Shown here: one piece after another, positions 43,804 through 58,485 of the stretch | How the letters are laid out: each line of letters begins with the position of its first letter | Position numbering within the stretch: position 1 is the first letter of the stretch | Origin: a virus | DNA length: 64,000 bases | IMG/VR virus record: IMGVR_UViG_3300046648_000141 | Coordinates: 1 to 64,000 of that record | Strand: one strand, 5' to 3' | The notes under the pieces: model-generated | Database searches by the model: none | Told to the model about the DNA's origin: nothing | The model's input: the letters and a program-made list of their open reading frames with translations, nothing else | Program-made: the position numbers and the translations under genes

Positions 43804-44058
43804 TCAGTCATCCCTAAGTGACTCCTCCAGCGCCTTTTGAATGTCCGTTTTCACTTCCTGATGCGGCAGTGTCGAAAAGGCCATGTCGATCTCGACGCGA
43901 TCCCAAACCGTCCGCATATCCACTTGCCGAGGCTTCGGCATCCGCCGATCGCGGACCATTTCATCAAATTTGCCGGTGCTCACTCCGACATACCGTGCCG
44001 CTTCCTCGCGGCTGAGACCGCGCGGTGGGTAGCTTAATGGATCGGGTTTCAAAGTCAT
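43804..44058 (-). CDS. AlpA/excisionase-like HTH protein, 84 aa
   Basis: The start at MTLKPDPLSYPPRG is the likely one. RGLSREEAARYVGVSTGKFD followed by EMVRDRRMPKPRQVDMRTVW is a MerR-type winged HTH as in AlpA and excisionases. Next to the integrase it may act as Xis or as an activator of int. The C-terminal tail is acidic. Confidence 0.75.
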   Translation of the reverse strand: MTLKPDPLSYPPRGLSREEAARYVGVSTGKFDEMVRDRRMPKPRQVDMRTVWDRVEIDMAFSTLPHQEVKTDIQKALEESLRDD

Positions 44059-44092
44059 TGCCGTCATCCCGGTTACACCTGAACTGCATTTC

Positions 44093-44355
44093 ACCTTGCT
44101 TCGCCGTGCCCTGCTTTGCCCCGCCCCGCCCAGCCGTGCCTAACCGTGCCACGTCATCGCCGTTCGAAAATTCACAAACCTCAATCCTTGCTTTGCCTAG
44201 CCCTGCCCCGCCTTGCCCGGCGCTGCCAGGCCCCGCGTCGCCCAGCCGAGCCTAGCCTTGCCTCGCCTTGCCCGGCCGTTAGAAATTCTCAAACTTCAAT
44301 CCTTGCTTCGCCGTGCCGGGCCTTTCCCGGCCTGACCTTGCCGTGCCGTGCCAGG
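44093..44355 (-). repeat. Pentanucleotide-repeat array A
   Basis: This is the gap between the genes at 44058 and 44362 (about 300 bases). Plus-strand text falls into 5-base units of the form CCNNG (CCTTG, CTTCG, CCGTG, CCCAG and so on). On the transcribed minus strand this reads GGCNN repeats. Three runs are parted by two copies (44166-44191 and 44282-44306) of a shared element GAAATTC-N2-AAAC-N-TCAATCCTTGC. No gene is visible. Confidence 0.85.
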
Positions 44356-44361
44356 GGAATC

Positions 44362-44625
44362 TCACTCGCGGCTTTGGAGCACATCAGCCACGAAGGCGGC
44401 GCACTCGTCGTGCAGCATGTCCAAGGCGATCTGAATAGGGTGGCCCAGCTCTTCCGTCATCGTCAGCAAACGCTGAGCGGCGACGCATCCGGAATAAAAA
44501 CTGCGACGGATTTCCTGGTACTGGACGGAGTCGGCCGCCAGCCCGTCGTCGTAACACGCCTTGATGTAGCTCTGGTAAAGCTGCTCAATGAAGTGCGTCC
44601 GCTCCGGATTTTCATTGTCGTTCAT
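44362..44625 (-). CDS. Hypothetical protein, 87 aa
   Basis: Last gene of the recombination operon before array A. It is helical and acidic (FIEQLYQSYIKACYDDGLAA; QIALDMLHDECAAFVADVLQ). It overlaps the next gene upstream by ATGA. No family is recognised. Confidence 0.6.
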   Translation of the reverse strand: MNDNENPERTHFIEQLYQSYIKACYDDGLAADSVQYQEIRRSFYSGCVAAQRLLTMTEELGHPIQIALDMLHDECAAFVADVLQSRE

Positions 44626-45200
44626 GCCGGTGTCCTCCCGATCCGGTCTGCCAGGACCGCGCGTTCGATCTCAGTCAAATCCCAGGCGCCGCAGACCAGC
44701 CACGTGTCGCCACGGCCTATCCTCCGGAGCAACATCGGGTCCGGGGGAATGTCTTTCCAGTTGGCCTCAAACAGGATGTGATAGTTCGCCAGACCGCGCG
44801 CCGGGCGGATATCCGGCGGGATATGTGGAACCATCGCTTCGGCGGCTCGATGGCGGGCCGGGAAAGTGCCATCCGGGAATTCGATGTAGCGGCTCTTGGC
44901 GGTATTGCCGGTGATCCATTTCAGGTCGGACGCCATGCGGGCGGAGCCGTCGTAGCGGATGGTCAGATGGCAGCGGGCGGCGTCGGCGCGGGCGATGCCG
45001 AGGAGCGGCAGACCGAACTCATTGACGCCGGCCGCCTTGATTGAAGCGAGCGCCCGAACGACCTTCCGGCCTTTCGAGATGAGATAGTAAATCCGTTCAA
45101 TCTCCTGATCGATCGGCGTGGAATGGGCGCGATGCTCCCGGTACTTCCGGTACAGTCGGGCCGCCTCGCCAACATCGAGGTCAAGCGTCTGGGTCTCCAT
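44622..45200 (-). CDS. Hypothetical protein, 192 aa
   Basis: The N-terminal third is a charged helix with IDQEIERIYYLISKGRKVVR. The middle is beta-rich (HLTIRYDGSARMASD, TAKSRYIEFPDGTF), and the end has WLVCGAWDLTEIERAVLADR. It looks like a phage protein of the Bet operon but is not recognised. It overlaps both neighbours. Confidence 0.6.
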   Translation of the reverse strand: METQTLDLDVGEAARLYRKYREHRAHSTPIDQEIERIYYLISKGRKVVRALASIKAAGVNEFGLPLLGIARADAARCHLTIRYDGSARMASDLKWITGNTAKSRYIEFPDGTFPARHRAAEAMVPHIPPDIRPARGLANYHILFEANWKDIPPDPMLLRRIGRGDTWLVCGAWDLTEIERAVLADRIGRTPA

Positions 45201-45969
45201 TGCCTTTCTCCCTTTTGCCAGAGGCGAGCGCGTCGAGATAACGCCGGGCCTCTGCTAACTTCATTGTTCCATCGGCAACCTTGCCGGCGATCTCGCCGCA
45301 CTTCCGGACGAAGGGCTCATCGTCCGGCAGCGTCTTCGTCCACGCGCTTGCCAGCCATTTCAGTCCGTCATGCCGGGCTTCGACGGTCAGGCTTTCATCG
45401 GTCGCATAATGCAGGAATTTGGTGACCGCCTCCGGCTTGAGCGAAGGCGGTTCAGGTGATCGCGGCAGCGACGCCGGTCTATGGGCCGTTGCACCGGCGC
45501 CGCTGCCTTCATCGACGCCGCTGGAGGCCGGCGCCGACGGTTCCTGATCTTTTCCCGGATCAGCCGATTCCTTGGAAAGCGTCTCGGGATCAACGCCGGT
45601 CATGCGATGGAGGAGCAACATCGCCCCTTCATAAAATTCCTCAAACTCCGGCTCTTCCAGATCGGTCAGGCTGCGAGGATAGACAACCTGAGCGCCGCCG
45701 ACCGTCCGGCCGTCCTCGATGACGCCGAGGAGGCGCTTGAGTTCATTGTTCAAACCATCGACCGTGCGAAACTTGGTGGGGCAATCCTTCACCACGCGGG
45801 CGAGGATCGCGAAATACTTCCGGCGCTTCCAGGTCTGATCGGCCGCCGGCTTGAGCGTCATGATCGTACCATTGCGGAAGCTGTCCAGGCGCTCCTCGGT
45901 AAACGGGTCGGCCGGCGTCAATTTGCCGGGACCGACGACCATGCGCAGCGGGGGAAATTCGCTCTTCAT
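45181..45969 (-). CDS. DUF1367-like (NinB-type) protein, 262 aa
   Basis: The first 110 residues (ERLDSFRNGTIMTLKPAADQ, TWKRRKYFAILARVVKDCPT, VDGLNNELKRLLGVI) resemble DUF1367, a phage domain related in context to NinB/Orf recombination mediators. A low-complexity linker (about 135-185) and a helical end follow. It may help to load or organise recombination proteins on ssDNA. Confidence 0.6.
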   Translation of the reverse strand: MKSEFPPLRMVVGPGKLTPADPFTEERLDSFRNGTIMTLKPAADQTWKRRKYFAILARVVKDCPTKFRTVDGLNNELKRLLGVIEDGRTVGGAQVVYPRSLTDLEEPEFEEFYEGAMLLLHRMTGVDPETLSKESADPGKDQEPSAPASSGVDEGSGAGATAHRPASLPRSPEPPSLKPEAVTKFLHYATDESLTVEARHDGLKWLASAWTKTLPDDEPFVRKCGEIAGKVADGTMKLAEARRYLDALASGKREKGNGDPDA

Positions 45970-46610
45970 GCCGGCACCTTCACAGCGAGTAGTTTCTCGA
46001 AATCATGAAACATCTTCATCAGCTCCCTGATCCCGGCGAGGCCATCACTCCGGGCCGCCTCCGCAAGCAGAGGGAAACCGGAGTTGATCGAAGCATCAAC
46101 CTCGGCGCGGGTCGCCCGGCGTGCCTTGGCGTAAAACTCAATCTCTGTCGGATCACCGATGCGGAAGAGCACGCCGTTATGAACGTCCATCCGATCATAG
46201 GAGTCCGTGACCCAGATTGCGCAGACGCCCGGATTGCGATCGATCATCTGACCGGCGACATGCCTGTCCTTCGGCAGATCGCGCTCATTGCGCTTCGCCA
46301 TCGGCTGCGTGAGGAACGGGCAATTCTTCGCCGCGAACCGGGCGCACGTGTAGTGGCTCGGCGGTTCAGACGACACCCGGTTGATGCAACACATGGGGCC
46401 GATCACGAAAGCCTTGTGTCGGCCCATCGTGTCACCGCATAGCCAGCAGAGCTTGCGGCGGTAACAGTCCGATACCCAGCCGGGCTTGACCAGACGGAAG
46501 TCCGGGATGCCGTCACGGGTGTGAACGAACCTCGGGACAGGGAACCCGCGCGCATCGCGGGGTAGTCGTTCGATGCGCGCGGGCATGTCCGTGAACAGAC
46601 GGTCAATCAT
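45966..46610 (-). CDS. Cysteine-containing phage protein, 214 aa
   Basis: The start at MIDRLFTDMPARIERLP overlaps the upstream gene by ATGA. CWLCGDTMGRHKAFVIGPMC followed by C, then HYTCARFAAKNCPFLTQPMA, is a cysteine-rich conserved core that may bind zinc. This family occurs in phage early operons without a known function. It is near the Bet gene. Confidence 0.7.
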   Translation of the reverse strand: MIDRLFTDMPARIERLPRDARGFPVPRFVHTRDGIPDFRLVKPGWVSDCYRRKLCWLCGDTMGRHKAFVIGPMCCINRVSSEPPSHYTCARFAAKNCPFLTQPMAKRNERDLPKDRHVAGQMIDRNPGVCAIWVTDSYDRMDVHNGVLFRIGDPTEIEFYAKARRATRAEVDASINSGFPLLAEAARSDGLAGIRELMKMFHDFEKLLAVKVPA

Positions 46611-46879
46611 GCCAGGACCTCTTTTGCTCGCTGGAGGGCGGCGCCGAATGTCCACGGGCCTTTCCTGGCGATTTCATTCCAGCCGTCCGGCAGGACCGAC
46701 ACGGACGAGCGGCCCGGCAAGACGGCCACCTTGCTGTCAACCGCCGCGTCTTTGACGCCGCGAAATTGCAGATACTGCGCAATCAGGCAGCATGAACCGT
46801 CCATGTAGTCGTAGCGCTTGGCGGGGTCCTTCCTGCCGAGAAATTCAATCAGGCTTCTATTGTCGAAGATCGGTCTCAT
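46607..46879 (-). CDS. Hypothetical protein, 90 aa
   Basis: The start at MRPIFDNRSLIEFLGRK has AAGGAGG upstream on the minus strand. Two adjacent cysteines (GSCCLIAQYLQFRGVKD) are followed by a helical end (WTFGAALQRAKEVLA). It lies directly after Bet. Unknown function. Confidence 0.65.
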   Translation of the reverse strand: MRPIFDNRSLIEFLGRKDPAKRYDYMDGSCCLIAQYLQFRGVKDAAVDSKVAVLPGRSSVSVLPDGWNEIARKGPWTFGAALQRAKEVLA

Positions 46880-46905
46880 TGCACGTCCTCCTTCTGGGGT
46901 TGGGG

Positions 46906-47844
46906 TCATTCCTGGACTGCGACACCGAGCGCCCGAAGGCGCCGGTTCTTGATATTCAGGCAAAGCTTCTGATCATCCTCGGACGCCTGGAAGCGGGCCA
47001 TAGGGTCCATTTCGGTCCAGATTTCTTCGACCGTCTCCGCGTCCGGCGCCTCAGTGAGACGGTCACGCAGCTGATCGAAGAAGGACCAGTCAACATCCGG
47101 ATCGGTCTCAGCACCGGATGTTTCCTCGGCGCCGGCCACGGACGTTTCCTCAACCACACCGTCGATCATCGGGCCTTCGTCTTGTTCCGCCTCCTCGGCG
47201 GGCGTTTCCGTTCCGGCGGGCAATGCATCCGGCCGTGGCGGGCGCGGCGCCTGACGGACATCTGGGAGCGGCGTGAGCCGGTTCTCCGCGACTCGCTGCC
47301 CTTCCTCTTCATCGAAGATGCCGGCAAAGCCGAAAGCATAGCGTGCGCACTGGATCAGCGACTTGTGCCGGAGCATCCGGTGGGCCATCTTCCACGGGTC
47401 AGTATCGCGCCAACACTCGGACAGATATTCGGTGACCGCCGTGGGGTGGGTCCGGTCCTTGCGATAGATCGTGCACTCGCACGAATACAGCTTGCCGTTA
47501 TCCTCATGCACCTCATCGAATTTGAAGCCGTCGCACGCCGGGTGCGAGTTGACGAGGTTTACCCATCCGTCGATCGAGACGATCGGGACAACGCCGCCGC
47601 CGCGTTTCGGATAGGCGAAGATTTCGCGGGTGATCGGATTGAGTTTGTACTCCCGCGCGACCAGCAGGAAGGCGGCAAACTCTTCGCGGGTCAGCGGCCG
47701 GAACTGCTCCCCCTTCTTCGGTGCCGGCGAACATGTCGCCCGGACGGTTAGCTCAAACGCTTGTGGTTCCATGCCGAAGCGGGCGGCCATGTCGTGAAGG
47801 ACCGAGCGCGGTTGGTCCTGTCTGGTTGCGATTGCGGTATTCAT
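46906..47844 (-). CDS. bet: Bet/RecT-family single-strand annealing protein, 312 aa
   Basis: Residues 40-200 have FAAFLLVAREYKLNPITREI followed by FAYPKRGGGVVPIVSIDGWV and WKMAHRMLRHKSLIQCARYA, the Bet/RecT core that anneals complementary ssDNA. A long acidic tail (about 205-300, EEAEQDEGPMIDGVVEETSV) may bind a partner such as SSB. No clear partner exonuclease is seen next to it. Repeat array B lies straight upstream. Confidence 0.9.
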   Translation of the reverse strand: MNTAIATRQDQPRSVLHDMAARFGMEPQAFELTVRATCSPAPKKGEQFRPLTREEFAAFLLVAREYKLNPITREIFAYPKRGGGVVPIVSIDGWVNLVNSHPACDGFKFDEVHEDNGKLYSCECTIYRKDRTHPTAVTEYLSECWRDTDPWKMAHRMLRHKSLIQCARYAFGFAGIFDEEEGQRVAENRLTPLPDVRQAPRPPRPDALPAGTETPAEEAEQDEGPMIDGVVEETSVAGAEETSGAETDPDVDWSFFDQLRDRLTEAPDAETVEEIWTEMDPMARFQASEDDQKLCLNIKNRRLRALGVAVQE

Positions 47845-47852
47845 TGCATTGC

Positions 47853-48200
47853 CTTTCTTTGCCTCACCGAGCCTAGCCTAGCGCCACCTAGCAACGCCTA
47901 GCCTCACTGTTCCACGCCTAGCCTTGCCGTTCGAAGCCCCGCCCCGCCATGCCGTTGCCGGCCTTGCCCTGGGCAAAATTTTCAAACATCAATCCTTGCC
48001 TCGCTCGGCCGTGCTACGCCTTGCCCGGCTCAGCCTATCCTCGCAATGCCACGCCGTTCCGTGCCAAGCCTCGCCCATCACTGCCCTGCTGAGTTTCGAA
48101 ATTCATAAAACTCAATCCTTGCCTTGCCTCGCTTCGCCGCACCGCGCCAAGCCGCGCCTTGCCTCACCATGCCCAGCCACGCCTTGCCCCGTTCGGGGTG
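47853..48200 (-). repeat. Pentanucleotide-repeat array B
   Basis: About 350 bases without a gene, between the RAMP-like gene and bet. Plus-strand CCNNG units (GCCTAG, GCCTTG and the like, period 5) run through it, parted by two copies of the shared element at 47974-47999 and 48097-48122. It forms the long untranslated leader of bet in the operon message. Confidence 0.85.
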
Positions 48201-48201
48201 T

Positions 48202-48810
48202 TTAAGCTGCCTGGGGCAGGCGAACCGGCTCCTCCCGCTCCTCTTCCCATTTCACGACGACGAAGCGGCCGAAGGGTCCTTTCGTCGCCGGCCGGAAGTC
48301 TCCCAGGCCGATGCGCTTGCCGGCGTCATCAATGATCTGACGCATCAGCTTTTGGCTCATGATTGAAATGTCGAGATCGAGCACGAAATCTAGCCGCCAA
48401 TCATCGAACAACGGTCTATGGGACAGGATGCGTCCGCCGGTCGAAGGGATGCGGACGGGCCGCGTATCAACCCGCCAGGGCTGCTCATGGATGATCGGAA
48501 TTGTCGCACCTTCGACATCGACGCAGGAGAAGAGCATGGATGATTTTTGCGTCGTCACTTGGCTCTTGCCAACCTTGTGGAAGCGTCCGCCTTCGACAAG
48601 GCAGCGCAGCAAGTTCGGCTGGGGAATGACCAGTTCACCCTCAAGCCCGTGATAGAGTTTTGAGGACGCGATCTCCAAAGGTGTCCCGCGATCCGTCGTT
48701 GCTATTGAGGAGCGAGTCCCGCTCGTCGCTGCCTCGGCCGCCTCATCCGTGAAGCGATTGCAGAGGAGTGGTGTGATGCCTTCAATGTTGACTTGGATTT
48801 TCACGTTCAT
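48202..48810 (-). CDS. RAMP/Cas7-like fold protein of recombination operon, 202 aa
   Basis: It opens with KIQVNIEGITPLLCNRF and contains TRPVRIPSTGGRILSHRPLF followed by DDWRLDFVLDLDISI, and near the end RIGLGDFRPATKGPFGRFVV. The opening strand with GITPLL and the glycine-rich GLGDFR..GPFGRF loop resemble RRM-like RAMP (Cas7-type) proteins. No CRISPR array or other cas gene is near. A nucleic-acid-coating role beside Bet is likely; the exact family name is not certain. Confidence 0.65.
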   Translation of the reverse strand: MNVKIQVNIEGITPLLCNRFTDEAAEAATSGTRSSIATTDRGTPLEIASSKLYHGLEGELVIPQPNLLRCLVEGGRFHKVGKSQVTTQKSSMLFSCVDVEGATIPIIHEQPWRVDTRPVRIPSTGGRILSHRPLFDDWRLDFVLDLDISIMSQKLMRQIIDDAGKRIGLGDFRPATKGPFGRFVVVKWEEEREEPVRLPQAA

Positions 48811-48835
48811 TCTCCGTTTTGGTTGCCGTGCTTTC

Positions 48836-48917
48836 AGTTTTCCTTGCTTTGCCTCGCCTTGCCGAGCCCTACCTCGCCAGTCCCAGCGTCGCCGAACCCC
48901 GCCCTGCCACGCCTCGT
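48836..48917 (-). repeat. Pentanucleotide-repeat array C
   Basis: A short array of CCNNG units on the plus strand (CCTTG CTTTG CCTCG CCTTG CCGAG CCCTA CCTCG and onward), between the small membrane protein and the RAMP-like gene. It has no copy of the shared spacer element. Confidence 0.8.
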
Positions 48918-49139
48918 TTATCGTCTCGGCGGCGGCGGCCTCTCTTCAGAGTGCCGCGTCGAAATCACCGGCCCGCGTTCTTTCCGGCCGGGATATGCTA
49001 GTGAGAAAGCCCACATCATCGGGACCAGTAAGACCATCGCAGTGACGCACAAGGCTGCGGGCAGGGTGCCGGTTAGGTAGGCGGCGGTGATCAAGAGGCC
49101 GGCCGCCGTGGTGTATATCGTCCAGGCCAGCACCTTCAC
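48918..49139 (-). CDS. Small membrane protein, 73 aa
   Basis: Two hydrophobic helices (about 5-25, AWTIYTTAAGLLITAAYLTG; 28-48, AALCVTAMVLLVPMMWAFSL) and a basic, proline-rich end. It overlaps the upstream stop by ATGA. Unknown role. Confidence 0.6.
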   Translation of the reverse strand: MKVLAWTIYTTAAGLLITAAYLTGTLPAALCVTAMVLLVPMMWAFSLAYPGRKERGPVISTRHSEERPPPPRR

Positions 49140-50086
49140 GACCCGCGCTCCTTGGGCATTTGCCGGCCGGCGCGAAACTTCCTGGCCTTATCTATCCACC
49201 ACGAAAAGCGGTTCTCACCGACCATTTTGATGGCGCCGCCGCCGACGACATACAAGCGATCCTCGCGGAAAGCCTCATAAGCCGAGATCGCAATCCGCAA
49301 GATGGCTGCGTGGTTATCGTGACCGACTGTCTTCCCGTCGCGGCCTAGTCGATATATCCGCTCCTGAAACGCCTGAACCGCATCCATCTCGCCTTCTATC
49401 TTGGTGCCTTTGCCGGTCGCGTAGGTTGACCAGAACGCTTTCGCATCGGTGCCGTGGCGGCGAAACGTCAGCAGGGCCGCCGCCATTACGGGAGAGATGA
49501 ATTTGTGACGTGTGGGACCGCACTCATCGAGCAGTGTCAACTCGGGTAGCCAGTCGAACAGCATTTCATAAAAGCCCCGTCCGCGAATCTTGCCCTTGAC
49601 GTTGCCGTAAAGCGTTTCCTGGGCGATCCGCATAGCGGCGCTGAACCGCCCGCTTTGCATCAGCTCGGATTGGAACCTGACGTTCTTCTCCTTCAGGCCG
49701 CCGAAAACCCGGTCGGCTGCATTCTCAACCGCGTCCTGGCTGTCGAACGTCATGTAGAGGTCTTTGGCGTCCTCCTCGGTCCGGCAATCCCACACGTCGG
49801 CATAGATCACGTCCGGTGCCGGAACCTCGCCGGCCGTCCACAGGAACGAGCGTGAGTGACCGTCAAGCTTCATCAGCGTCCCGTCCGGAAACCGGGCGAT
49901 ATTGACCTTCTGATGGGAGGGGTGAAGCGTGCGCAGATGATAAGCCCGCCGCGCCCGGCTTTCGGTGTCGCGCTGCCGGGTGTTATCCGGGATAGCCGCG
50001 AACGATGCCTTATCGAGAGTGACCACACCACCGTAGCGGACCCGCTCGTCCGGCGTGAAGCCCGTGTTGAACGTTTCGATTTTCAT
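49136..50086 (-). CDS. ParB/Srx-fold-like phage protein, 316 aa
   Basis: The start at MKIETFNTGFTPDE has AGGAGG upstream; the longer frame runs antisense through other text. IARFPDGTLMKLDGHSRSFL followed by WTAGEVP is the ParB-like GHxR signature region, in a protein with a long helical rest (QAVQAFQERIYRLGRDGKTV). ParB-fold proteins of this type occur in phage early operons. Role unknown. Confidence 0.65.
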   Translation of the reverse strand: MKIETFNTGFTPDERVRYGGVVTLDKASFAAIPDNTRQRDTESRARRAYHLRTLHPSHQKVNIARFPDGTLMKLDGHSRSFLWTAGEVPAPDVIYADVWDCRTEEDAKDLYMTFDSQDAVENAADRVFGGLKEKNVRFQSELMQSGRFSAAMRIAQETLYGNVKGKIRGRGFYEMLFDWLPELTLLDECGPTRHKFISPVMAAALLTFRRHGTDAKAFWSTYATGKGTKIEGEMDAVQAFQERIYRLGRDGKTVGHDNHAAILRIAISAYEAFREDRLYVVGGGAIKMVGENRFSWWIDKARKFRAGRQMPKERGS

Positions 50087-50111
50087 GCCGTCCTCCTGTT
50101 TCCCACGCATC

Positions 50112-50429
50112 TCAATATCCCCTCGGCGGAACGTAGAGGCAGAGGGTCCTGGACGTGTCCAAGCCGCCGAGGCTACACCAGTGGAATTCACCGTCCGGCG
50201 ATTCCCTGATGCGGGAGTCGCGGTAGCTGAGCACTTCGCCGGTGCTGGAAATCTGGTAGCCCATCGGCGTCTCTTTGACCCGGACGCCGGGATCATGATT
50301 GACCTCGCGGCAATCGATGCCGGAGCAGCATCGGAGGTCATACCGCCAGCCGGCGGGAGCGTCGTGAGCCTGAACCGTGCCGGCGATGAGACCGGCGGCG
50401 ATGATGAAACTGCAATTCATTCCAAGCAT
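50112..50429 (-). CDS. Secreted/periplasmic protein with conserved cysteines, 105 aa
   Basis: MLGMNCSFIIAAGLIAGTVQA is a signal peptide, with cleavage expected after VQA. The mature part starts HDAPAGWRYDLRCCSGIDCR and has further cysteines (HWCSLGG, TLCLY), fitting a disulfide-rich periplasmic protein common in alphaproteobacteria and their phages. It could protect the host cell surface during lysogeny; that is inference. Confidence 0.75.
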   Translation of the reverse strand: MLGMNCSFIIAAGLIAGTVQAHDAPAGWRYDLRCCSGIDCREVNHDPGVRVKETPMGYQISSTGEVLSYRDSRIRESPDGEFHWCSLGGLDTSRTLCLYVPPRGY

Positions 50430-50447
50430 TCCAGCACCTCCTGAAAC

Positions 50448-50508
50448 CACGCTTTGCTTCCGCTTTGCCCTGCCCCGCCACGCCCAGCTCCGCCGAGCCA
50501 AGCCAAGG
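50448..50508 (-). repeat. Pentanucleotide-repeat array D
   Basis: The gap between the 51519-50509 and 50429-50112 genes carries CCNNG units on the plus strand (CTTTG CCCTG CCCCG CCACG CCCAG CTCCG CCGAG CCAAG). It is the first array met by a transcript from the operon start. Confidence 0.75.
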
Positions 50509-51519
50509 TCAGACGGCTCGTTTTTCCTCGATGATCTCCATGCCGGCGACGGTCTTCTCCAGCCGCGCGTACCGATTGGCAATCCGCTGGGCCGTCTCCT
50601 TTAATTCTTCTTCATCCATGATCGCGGCCAGGAACGCTTCGAAGTCCGTTATCATTCCCGTGCGATAGGTCCGGAGCGACGTCTTCTCGCCGGTCGGCCC
50701 GGCCTGGGGACGCTGAAACTCCGCTTCCCGCTCCGCTTCCTTGGCGGCGGCTACCTTGGCGCCGGCTTCGCGCTGAGCGTCCGGGCTGTTGGCTTTCCGC
50801 GCTTCCTCTTCAGCCTCCAGCCGCAACCGCTCGGCCTCCATAGCTTTCTTGGCAGCGCGTTCGCGTTCAAGCCGCTCTTGTTCCTTGAGCCAGACCGTCG
50901 CGCGTTTCTTGAGCAGTTGCGCGTAGCCGGCCGGTTGCTCACGCAGCTCCCGCCAGCGCGCATCGACCTTTTTGCCGGCGACGATCAGAGGGGCCTTCTC
51001 GACGGCGTGAAGGTTGTCCGCACGGTTGCCGATGCCCCGGAGACGCTTCAACAAGACGGCCTCGCTGTCGGCCTGATCCTTGGTCGTGAGTGGCGCTTTC
51101 AACGCGGTTTCGACCAGCGCCTTTTCACCGATGAACTCAGCCATCAGCTCATCGTGCGGGTCGGCCTCCCCGGCGGCGGCGGAGTTGTGCCCGATGCCGG
51201 TAGGCGTGACTTTCTCCGGCTGATCGGCCCAGCCGTTGCCGGCTACCGCCCGGTCAAAGGCTTCCTCGGTGATCGGGTTTTTGCAGGCCCACAGCCAGAG
51301 GTCCGGAATGGCTTCCGGGGTTACAGCATGCCCGGAGCGGGCGGCGCACCAGACGCCGGTTTCGTCCTGCCAGAACTGGACGGGCTCCCAGGCTTCACCC
51401 TTCCGGCGGACCCGGAAAAATCCAGTCCACGGAAGTCCGTCATGAATGGCGAGCGGGCCTTTCCCGATCTTGGAAGGATCGGCGAGCGCAAGCCGCCACT
51501 TTTCCCAGGGGTCTGACAT
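50509..51519 (-). CDS. Coiled-coil phage protein with IGHNS motif, 336 aa
   Basis: The first 90 residues have PWTGFFRVRRKGEAWEPVQF, a small folded domain. TGIGHNSAAAGEA follows (IGHNS is found in rhizobial phage proteins), then a long charged coiled coil (about 130-280, KKRATVWLKEQERLERERAA). It is the first large gene of the recombination operon. Not recognised as an enzyme; it may bind the recombination complex. Confidence 0.65.
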   Translation of the reverse strand: MSDPWEKWRLALADPSKIGKGPLAIHDGLPWTGFFRVRRKGEAWEPVQFWQDETGVWCAARSGHAVTPEAIPDLWLWACKNPITEEAFDRAVAGNGWADQPEKVTPTGIGHNSAAAGEADPHDELMAEFIGEKALVETALKAPLTTKDQADSEAVLLKRLRGIGNRADNLHAVEKAPLIVAGKKVDARWRELREQPAGYAQLLKKRATVWLKEQERLERERAAKKAMEAERLRLEAEEEARKANSPDAQREAGAKVAAAKEAEREAEFQRPQAGPTGEKTSLRTYRTGMITDFEAFLAAIMDEEELKETAQRIANRYARLEKTVAGMEIIEEKRAV

Positions 51520-57092: not shown

Positions 57093-57667
57093 TTATCCTT
57101 GGCCTCGATCAGTCGATAACCCGGACAGGCTGGGCGCTTTATCGCTTCCCCGGCGATGAGCGGCACATGAGGTGCGGCTCGTTCTCCTGTTCGGATGAGG
57201 CCGACGCCGACGCCAAGTGTGAGCGCTTCGCCCGTGAGATTAAGCGGCTGGTCGGACCCCAGGAAACGCGGCCGGACTTCATTTGCTGGGAGAAGGCCAA
57301 GCGGCAAATCTCCGCCTACCCCAAGAAGCCGAACGCCGATCTGCTCGGCCTGGGCGGCCAGGACGTTTGGACGGTCAACGCCGATCAGCTCCTCCTCCCC
57401 GAAATTCAGGGCATCATCCGGGCGGCGACCGTCTTCTATCGCGTGCCGCACGAGTCGGTATCGCCGGCGACATGGCGGGCTGCGATTTACGGCAAGGGCG
57501 GCGGCAAACTATCGCGCGTCGATGCCAAGGCGCGGGCCAAGGAATACTGCCAGGCCCTCGGTATCAAGTTCAGCGGCGACGATCAGGCGGAAGCCGCGTG
57601 CATCGCCCGGTGGGCCGCGACGTGCTCTATCGCCTTCCGGATGCTTATGGCGAGGGCGGCGGCATGA
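57089..57667 (+). CDS. RuvC-like Holliday junction resolvase, 192 aa
   Basis: D7 (ILGLDQSITRTGW), E68 (FICWEK), D164/D165 and E168 (SGDDQAEA) are the acidic residues of the RuvC/RNase H fold, in the order expected. The length fits. It cuts branched DNA formed in replication and recombination and may also be needed before packaging. Overlaps its neighbours. Confidence 0.88.
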   Translation: MIILGLDQSITRTGWALYRFPGDERHMRCGSFSCSDEADADAKCERFAREIKRLVGPQETRPDFICWEKAKRQISAYPKKPNADLLGLGGQDVWTVNADQLLLPEIQGIIRAATVFYRVPHESVSPATWRAAIYGKGGGKLSRVDAKARAKEYCQALGIKFSGDDQAEAACIARWAATCSIAFRMLMARAAA

Positions 57668-58485
57668 TCCAGTTGCGCGTCCTGTCCCTCGGTGCCGGCG
57701 TCCAATCGACCACGATGGCGCTTATGGCCGCTCATGGCGAAATAGGCCCGATGCCAGACGCCGCGATATTCGCGGACACCGGGGCAGAACCGAAGCCGGT
57801 CTATGATCATCTCACATGGCTGATGTCGGCCAACGTGCTCCCCTTCCCCGTCTATGTCGTCAGCGCCGGGAACCTCCGGGACATCCTTACGGGCAACGCC
57901 CACTGGAAGGGCGGCAATGACGGCCGGCCGCCGTTCTACGTTGTCAACGACAAGGGCGAGGCCGGCACGCTCAACCGCCAATGCACCCGTCATTTCAAGA
58001 TTGATCCGATCCGCCGGAAGGTGCGCGAGCTGCTCGGCCTGAAGCACGGGCAGCGCGGACCCAAGACCGCAGCGGCGGAGCAATGGATTGGCATTAGCCT
58101 TGACGAAGCCACCCGCATGAAGCCGTCGCGTGACCGCTACATCGAAAGCCGGTGGCCGTTGATCGAAAAGCGGATGACGCGCCGGGACTGCCTGAAATGG
58201 CTTCAGGCTCATGACTATCCGCTGCCGGCAAAGTCGGCCTGTACTTTCTGCCCGTTCCGCAATGAAATCGGCTGGCGCGACCTACGCGACAATGACCCGG
58301 CTTCATTCGCCGACGCCGTTGCCATCGACAAGATCATCCGGGACGGGATGCCCGGCGTGAACCGCTCCCAGGTGTTCATCCATCGGTCGCTCAAGCCGCT
58401 CGATGAGGTCGATCTATCGACCGCCGAGGAGCGCGGCCAGCTCAATCTCTTCATCAATGAGTGCGAAGGGATGTGTGGCGTATGA
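57664..58485 (+). CDS. PP-loop (PAPS-reductase-like) protein with cysteine clusters, 273 aa
   Basis: The start at MIQLRVLSLGAGVQSTTMAL overlaps the RuvC-like stop. SLGAGVQSTTM (8-18) is a PP-loop that binds ATP. FADTGAEPKPVYDHLTWL follows the PAPS-reductase fold. Later LNRQCTRHFK and SACTFCPFRNE supply cysteines that could hold an iron-sulfur cluster or act in sulfur transfer. A nucleotide- or tRNA-thiolation type reaction is possible. It is the second such family member in the phage. Confidence 0.8.
   Translation: MIQLRVLSLGAGVQSTTMALMAAHGEIGPMPDAAIFADTGAEPKPVYDHLTWLMSANVLPFPVYVVSAGNLRDILTGNAHWKGGNDGRPPFYVVNDKGEAGTLNRQCTRHFKIDPIRRKVRELLGLKHGQRGPKTAAAEQWIGISLDEATRMKPSRDRYIESRWPLIEKRMTRRDCLKWLQAHDYPLPAKSACTFCPFRNEIGWRDLRDNDPASFADAVAIDKIIRDGMPGVNRSQVFIHRSLKPLDEVDLSTAEERGQLNLFINECEGMCGV

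Follow-up and report, generated by a model that had tools for sequence, protein, structure and literature searches.

The DNA analysed here, referred to as the window, comprises positions 1 to 64,000 of the IMG/VR virus record IMGVR_UViG_3300046648_000141. Its minus strand carries a recombination operon that includes a Bet annealing protein gene and a gene for a 202-residue protein (vipr, 48202..48810), and four gaps of this operon contain arrays of a degenerate five-base repeat read on the same strand. The arrays and the protein encoded at 48202 very probably form a VIPR system, with its guide-RNA genes placed inside the recombination operon. VIPR is a phage-borne relative of CRISPR described in a 2026 preprint, in which a small protein finds DNA via RNAs coded by repeats (PMC13142463).

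The initial annotation had described four tracts with a period of five bases, and these were borne out: they read GCC-NN on the plus strand, that is, GGC-NN in the minus-strand RNA, and all lie in operon gaps. A scan of the window for period-5 GCC-NN runs returned 44103-44354, 47861-48190, 48851-48915 and 50467-50506, with scores of 21-45, whereas 100 shuffles that preserved the dinucleotides scored 12 at best; in a strict-period GGC scan, the window had no period-5 run outside these gaps or in the reverse orientation. Pattern matching over the complete 67,913-base record gave 25 minus-strand matches, all of them in the four gaps, and none for the plus strand or a reversed control pattern. The lag-5 signal, which had been named in advance as a check, amounts to an identity of 0.50-0.70 within the arrays, compared to 0.12-0.41 at lags 3, 4 and 6. 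The gaps and the period had been recognized correctly; the four tracts, on the other hand, split into eight arrays, four of them with an AU-rich tail.

The eight arrays hold 114 units of NN-GGY on the minus strand. At the GGY positions the entropy is 0.83, 0.07 and 0.75 bits, and at the two N positions it is 1.87 and 1.93 bits. Array g1 (50462..50506, 9 units) stands alone in its gap, and g2 (48846..48915, 14 units) lies upstream of vipr and has a non-canonical end (AAGGAAAACTG). The gap between vipr and bet holds g3 (48121..48190, 14 units), g4 (47998..48077, 16 units) and g5 (47861..47970, 22 units), the last of which stops just before the start of bet and perhaps consists of two guides around a TTCGA remnant. 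The fourth gap holds g6 (44310..44354, 9 units), g7 (44190..44279, 18 units) and g8 (44093..44152, 12 units), which extends into the region where the next gene starts and is the same in a sister phage (IMGVR_UViG_3300046460_000148). A conserved AU-rich tail follows g3, g4, g6 and g7 (48095..48120, 47972..47997, 44280..44304 and 44163..44189, respectively, all on the minus strand), and the alignment of seven tails from the window and the sister phage gives the consensus GCAAGGATTGAGGTTTGTGAATTTT. The arrays g1, g2, g5 and g8 end in GCAAAG- or GCAAGG-like sequences shortly before the next gene start, which in the case of g1 is a likely start. A scan with the tail pattern matched the sister phage and two contigs, and neither arrays nor Vipr were found in those two. 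Arrays interspersed with hammerhead ribozymes are not indicated, and Rfam gave no match in the window at gathering scores.

The 48202 protein has no Pfam match and matches phrog_4652, a family of unknown function. A family profile of 60 sequences (that of the window and 59 homologues) matches the PDB entry 36pp, "SUSP1 Vipr protein", with an E value of 3.7e-38, and the single sequence matches the same entry at 9.2e-8; in the other direction, a hidden Markov model (HMM) of the window family recovers the Vipr of SUSP1 with an E value of 6.8e-40. The structure model of the protein has a predicted local distance difference test score of 89.8 and a predicted template modelling score of 0.83. When this model was searched with Foldseek, whose library extends to 2026-04-08 and in which 36pp was not among the matches listed, the top rows were Cas7/Csm3-type subunits of type VII and type III CRISPR complexes (E 5.7e-7), and the best comparison with Csm3 has a Z score of 12.9 and a root-mean-square deviation of 4.2 over 163 aligned positions. 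In the alignment of the 60 sequences, G168 is invariant and G164, G170, R173 and P174 are at least 90% conserved; the glycine-rich stretch around G168 would be the G-loop of the RAMP fold. Based on the profile matches and the predicted fold, the 48202 protein is identified as a Vipr protein.

The association of the arrays with Vipr was examined from both sides. A scan of viral contigs for seven perfect GGC units returned at least 120 stretches. Among the matches listed, a Vipr homologue is present in 83 of 120 array loci (82 distinct sequences) and a Bet homologue in only 3; all 366 array-Vipr pairs lie within 3 kb of each other, and 351 are on the same strand. In reverse, all 13 Vipr loci that had not been fetched via arrays carry array stretches on the vipr strand, although these amount to one short stretch each in L184 and L186 (9 and 7 units). 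This set comprises 12 loci found by protein search (L170, L172, L173, L179, L183-L186 and L240-L243) and SUSP1, taken by accession (L182); it includes L173, a near relative of the window, and excludes L169 (the sister phage, which has arrays) and L171, whose Vipr is as in L170. It represents part of the protein-search yield, with 4 of the 105 matching phage records examined (H41, H42, H43 and H51). Protein searches yielded 23 Bet relatives; in the stretch examined, L146 has both Vipr and arrays and the other 22 lack both. The 712,079 bases from 13 Bet-relative records contain no array with the same scanner and no Vipr with the Vipr HMM. Because of these co-occurrence counts, the reverse test and the Bet relatives free of both, we conclude that the arrays belong to Vipr, not Bet. 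Homology, fold and co-occurrence support the earlier suggestion that the RAMP-like 48202 protein may use the arrays in the form of RNA.

The initial annotation knew of no established function for such tracts, and a function has since been described for the VIPR kind (PMC13142463); among the matches listed in a literature search, that preprint is the only description of VIPR. Vipr proteins have a RAMP fold and are mostly virus-borne, and the RNAs that they use (vrRNAs) consist of 9-16 YNNGG repeats followed by a 3' tail, whose NN pairs recognize duplex DNA, skipping one base (PMC13142463). The preprint lists 667 representative systems in seven types, with that of Escherichia phage SUSP1 (KT454805) as type II; vrRNAs were produced and co-purified with Vipr in both P. 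fulva and SUSP1, repression and the 1-nt skip were demonstrated for SUSP1, and the natural targets inferred there suggest competing phages and satellites (PMC13142463). Of the four arrays of SUSP1, one precedes Vipr and three follow it (PMC13142463), and our scanner, run on SUSP1 as a positive control, called four arrays in this arrangement.

The window and SUSP1 have in common a homologous Vipr, a repeated tail behind arrays, and arrays of NN-GGY units that lie on the strand of vipr in the gaps beside it. They differ in that the tail in the window is AAGGATTGAnGTTTGnGAATTT and not the SUSP1 tail, the units in the window are GGC whereas those of SUSP1 are mostly GGT, there are eight arrays instead of four, and the guides of the window occupy four gaps of a Bet/exonuclease operon, across 6 kb. 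The kind of system is already described, and it is the operon setting of this member that is unusual. With Bet and putative exonuclease genes on either side of vipr, the operon resembles a lambda Red-like operon, but vipr and arrays are absent from the stretches examined in 22 of the 23 Bet relatives mentioned above. The likeness to the Cas7/Csm3 proteins of class 1 CRISPR-Cas lies in the RAMP fold and, presumably, in an oligomer formed on the guide RNA; the specificity of VIPR would come from NN pairs (as read from PMC13142463), whereas that of CRISPR comes from a contiguous spacer. The tandem-repeat list of the window has no CRISPR-like repeat-spacer array, only the period-5 runs, and Cas families were found neither by Pfam and PADLOC in ten operon proteins nor by PHROGs in ten. 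This case shows that a hypervariable array with a five-base period, read from raw sequence, is the mark of an RNA-guided system.

Homology is the basis for the function assigned to the system in this phage, and its target and role are proposed rather than observed. If the system is equivalent in function to that of SUSP1, the operon would be expressed and its transcript cut into vrRNAs of about 70-115 nt, each with an NN-GGY run and a 3' tail. Vipr subunits would then coat the repeats and keep the GGY triplets unpaired, so that the NN pairs would be offered to duplex DNA with one base skipped per unit. The resulting Vipr-vrRNA ribonucleoprotein may finally bind the DNA of a competing mobile element and repress it.

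The sister phage allowed the guides to be compared within common surroundings. Its flanking blocks are 87-91% identical to those of the window, and the DNA examined has nine array stretches, in which the guides are largely different and new guides with tails occur. At the g1 site (L146), the flanks are common and the GGY positions are kept (24/27), and the NN positions agree at only 7/18. In the gap of g3-g5, the start of g3 is fused to the end of g5; in the gap of g6-g8, the sister phage has five arrays compared to three in the window, and g8 with its preceding tail is identical over 113 bases. In a third relative (L173), g2 is unchanged and g1 is shortened. Since guides have been replaced, fused and added within common flanks, these comparisons indicate guide turnover: guides change by replacement and recombination inside stable flanks, and some remain fixed. 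Such sister-phage pairs allow the study of VIPR guide gain and swap, a subject apparently not treated in the text of PMC13142463.

Several findings weigh against assigning the locus to VIPR. The canonical tail is absent from four of the eight arrays (g1, g2, g5 and g8), and the tail alignment yields no consensus structure, compared to the structured tail reported for the SUSP1 clade (PMC13142463). Six of the arrays are within the published 9-16 repeats, and two are longer (g7 with 18 units and g5 with 22). A vap accessory gene is typical of VIPR systems; a vap1-like gene, a homologue of the SUSP1 downstream gene that we take to be vap1, was not found in the window, and 12 of the searched loci have one. 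No Vipr was found in 37 of the 120 array loci among the matches listed, where some stretches are short; these loci may be truncated, have a divergent Vipr or be orphans. Finally, searches by the 1-nt-skip rule in collected loci, viral contigs, genomes and phage DNA turned up no convincing target for the guides used.

These target searches ran without a positive control. The collected loci were searched with 17 guides of the window and the sister phage and, separately, with 320 sampled from 404 unique guides, 37 of which were too short to score; the large collections were searched with g3, g4, g7 and g8. In the 17-guide search, the arrays themselves were matched at skip 3. A 26-unit guide of the sister phage matched 20/24 letters at skip 1 in SUSP1, and g3 matched 20/24 at skip 2, with the one shuffle of each giving no reportable score; the sister guide R_g4 (10 units) matched 16/20 at skips 0 and 1, and its shuffle had no reportable score at skip 1 and scored 16 at skips 0, 2 and 3. 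The matches of these three guides are taken as chance. With the 320 guides, the best scores lay close together, at 19/20 (twice) for skip 1, 20 for skip 0 and 18 for skip 2, and 18 for shuffled guides. None of the viral contigs matched the 10-unit patterns of g7 and g3; with 8-unit patterns there were six matches for g4 and three for g8. The g4 and g8 matches were rejected as targets, as their remaining units agree at 37/122 and 10/30 letters, near chance. An 8-unit match in L189 that extends to 10 units is also taken as chance, and its record has no match to the terminase of the window. Neither g8 nor g7 matched any of 392 genomes of the Neorhizobium order (12 units, at most 3 mismatches), and g4 matched none of 23 virus records (21 found by Bet and 2 by Vipr). 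In 1.38 Mb of DNA from related phages and other sources, scores above those of the shuffles came only from loci that the 8-unit patterns had pre-selected.

The missing targets, the tails absent from four arrays and the shortened g1 of L173 would also suit a decayed VIPR remnant, in which vipr has been kept and the guides drift unused. This is unlikely: the vipr frame is intact and one Vipr relative is 98% identical in protein, the GGY of g1 is kept while its NN changes, and the new guides of the sister phage have tails. We regard it as a distant prospect that the locus is an RNA-guided recombination module, in which Vipr-vrRNA would open or mark chosen duplex DNA, Bet and the exonuclease of the same operon would recombine there, and each array beside a downstream gene could double as the mRNA leader of that gene. 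The initial annotation had offered, among other options, arrays that act as binding sites of the annealing protein or as recombination substrates; Vipr would then be a bystander. The arrays do occupy the gaps of the Bet operon, and some other Vipr loci also adjoin annealing-protein genes; on the other hand, the sole array-bearing Bet relative of 23 also has Vipr, the survey of recT/bet regions found no period-5 array in the stretches examined of the remaining 22 or in the 712 kb, and the 3/120 count points the same way, so that neither proposal is supported and Bet or recombination sites are very improbable. That the arrays are a neutral slippage microsatellite of a GC-rich genome can practically be dismissed, since beyond the tandem period itself there are the strand bias, the variable NN within conserved GGY, the tails, and the confinement to operon gaps, with no array in the 712 kb from related phages. 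The VIPR interpretation is retained.

The genes around the system were assigned as follows, all on the minus strand. The Bet/RecT annealing protein gene (46906..47844) matches PF03837 (E 1.1e-19) and phrog_252 (E 4.2e-58). The upstream neighbour is the putative recombination exonuclease gene (50509..51519), with a match to phrog_10477 (E 7.4e-21) and none in Pfam; it also gave the sole PADLOC match among ten operon proteins, a weak one to the candidate model PDC-M02B (E 0.0024). Downstream of g8 lies a helix-turn-helix/excisionase-like regulator gene (43804..44094; phrog_25900, E 8.2e-16).

The neighbours of Vipr elsewhere were surveyed at 85 Vipr loci, in 227 flanking open reading frames (ORFs) of at least 150 residues that lie on the same strand and no more than 4 kb away. 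Pfam identified at least nine AAA_24 (Sak4-like), at least four RecT, at least two ERF and at least three YqaJ proteins, and PHROGs, applied to 140 of the 227, identified seven Sak4-like proteins. Vipr is thus found in recombination modules more than once, with no baseline for comparison, and the tracts mentioned in the initial annotation near annealing-protein genes have a counterpart in the AAA_24, RecT and ERF genes beside some Vipr loci, a likeness that stands without a control. Together with the Bet/exonuclease setting of the window, the Sak4, RecT and ERF genes raise the question of whether recombination rewrites the guides or joins in their action. In L065 and L073, Vipr lies beside a YqaJ-type exonuclease and RecT- or ERF-like genes, with the families assigned by ORF reading.

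The phage looks temperate because its genes include an integrase and a CI-like repressor; there are also terminase, tape-measure and other tail genes. The closest terminases are those of four cyanophages, with a Nostoc phage first (62%); most of the next matches are to phages of alphaproteobacteria. The best named-phage matches of Bet are Synechococcus phages (46.5%), and five Bet relatives lie in named genomes (Neorhizobium, Aminobacter, Allorhizobium and Shinella, that is, rhizobia and relatives; one Nitrospirae metagenome-assembled genome). The terminase and Bet relatives therefore point, weakly, to an alphaproteobacterial host. The Vipr described here would accordingly come from a temperate siphophage, perhaps of alphaproteobacteria, and may already figure in the tables of PMC13142463.

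Further observations concern other loci and genes. A Vipr homologue with adjacent arrays occurs in 4 of 397 genomes of the Neorhizobium order (L183-L186), with six array stretches in L183. Vipr and arrays are also present in the Gordonia phages MakoManhole and Trine, the Pseudomonas phage LESphi2 and a Paenibacillus plasmid record (L240-L243); the three phage records annotate Vipr as a hypothetical protein, and in MakoManhole the next gene carries the annotation DNA binding protein. The array loci in which no Vipr was found include L030, L100, L101 and L130, and some of the arrays are very long (up to 340 bases in L101). Within the window, 45181-45969 has a weak match to the NinB/Orf recombination mediator (E 0.0046), and 57283-58485 holds a phosphoadenosine phosphosulfate reductase-like gene, an auxiliary metabolic gene.

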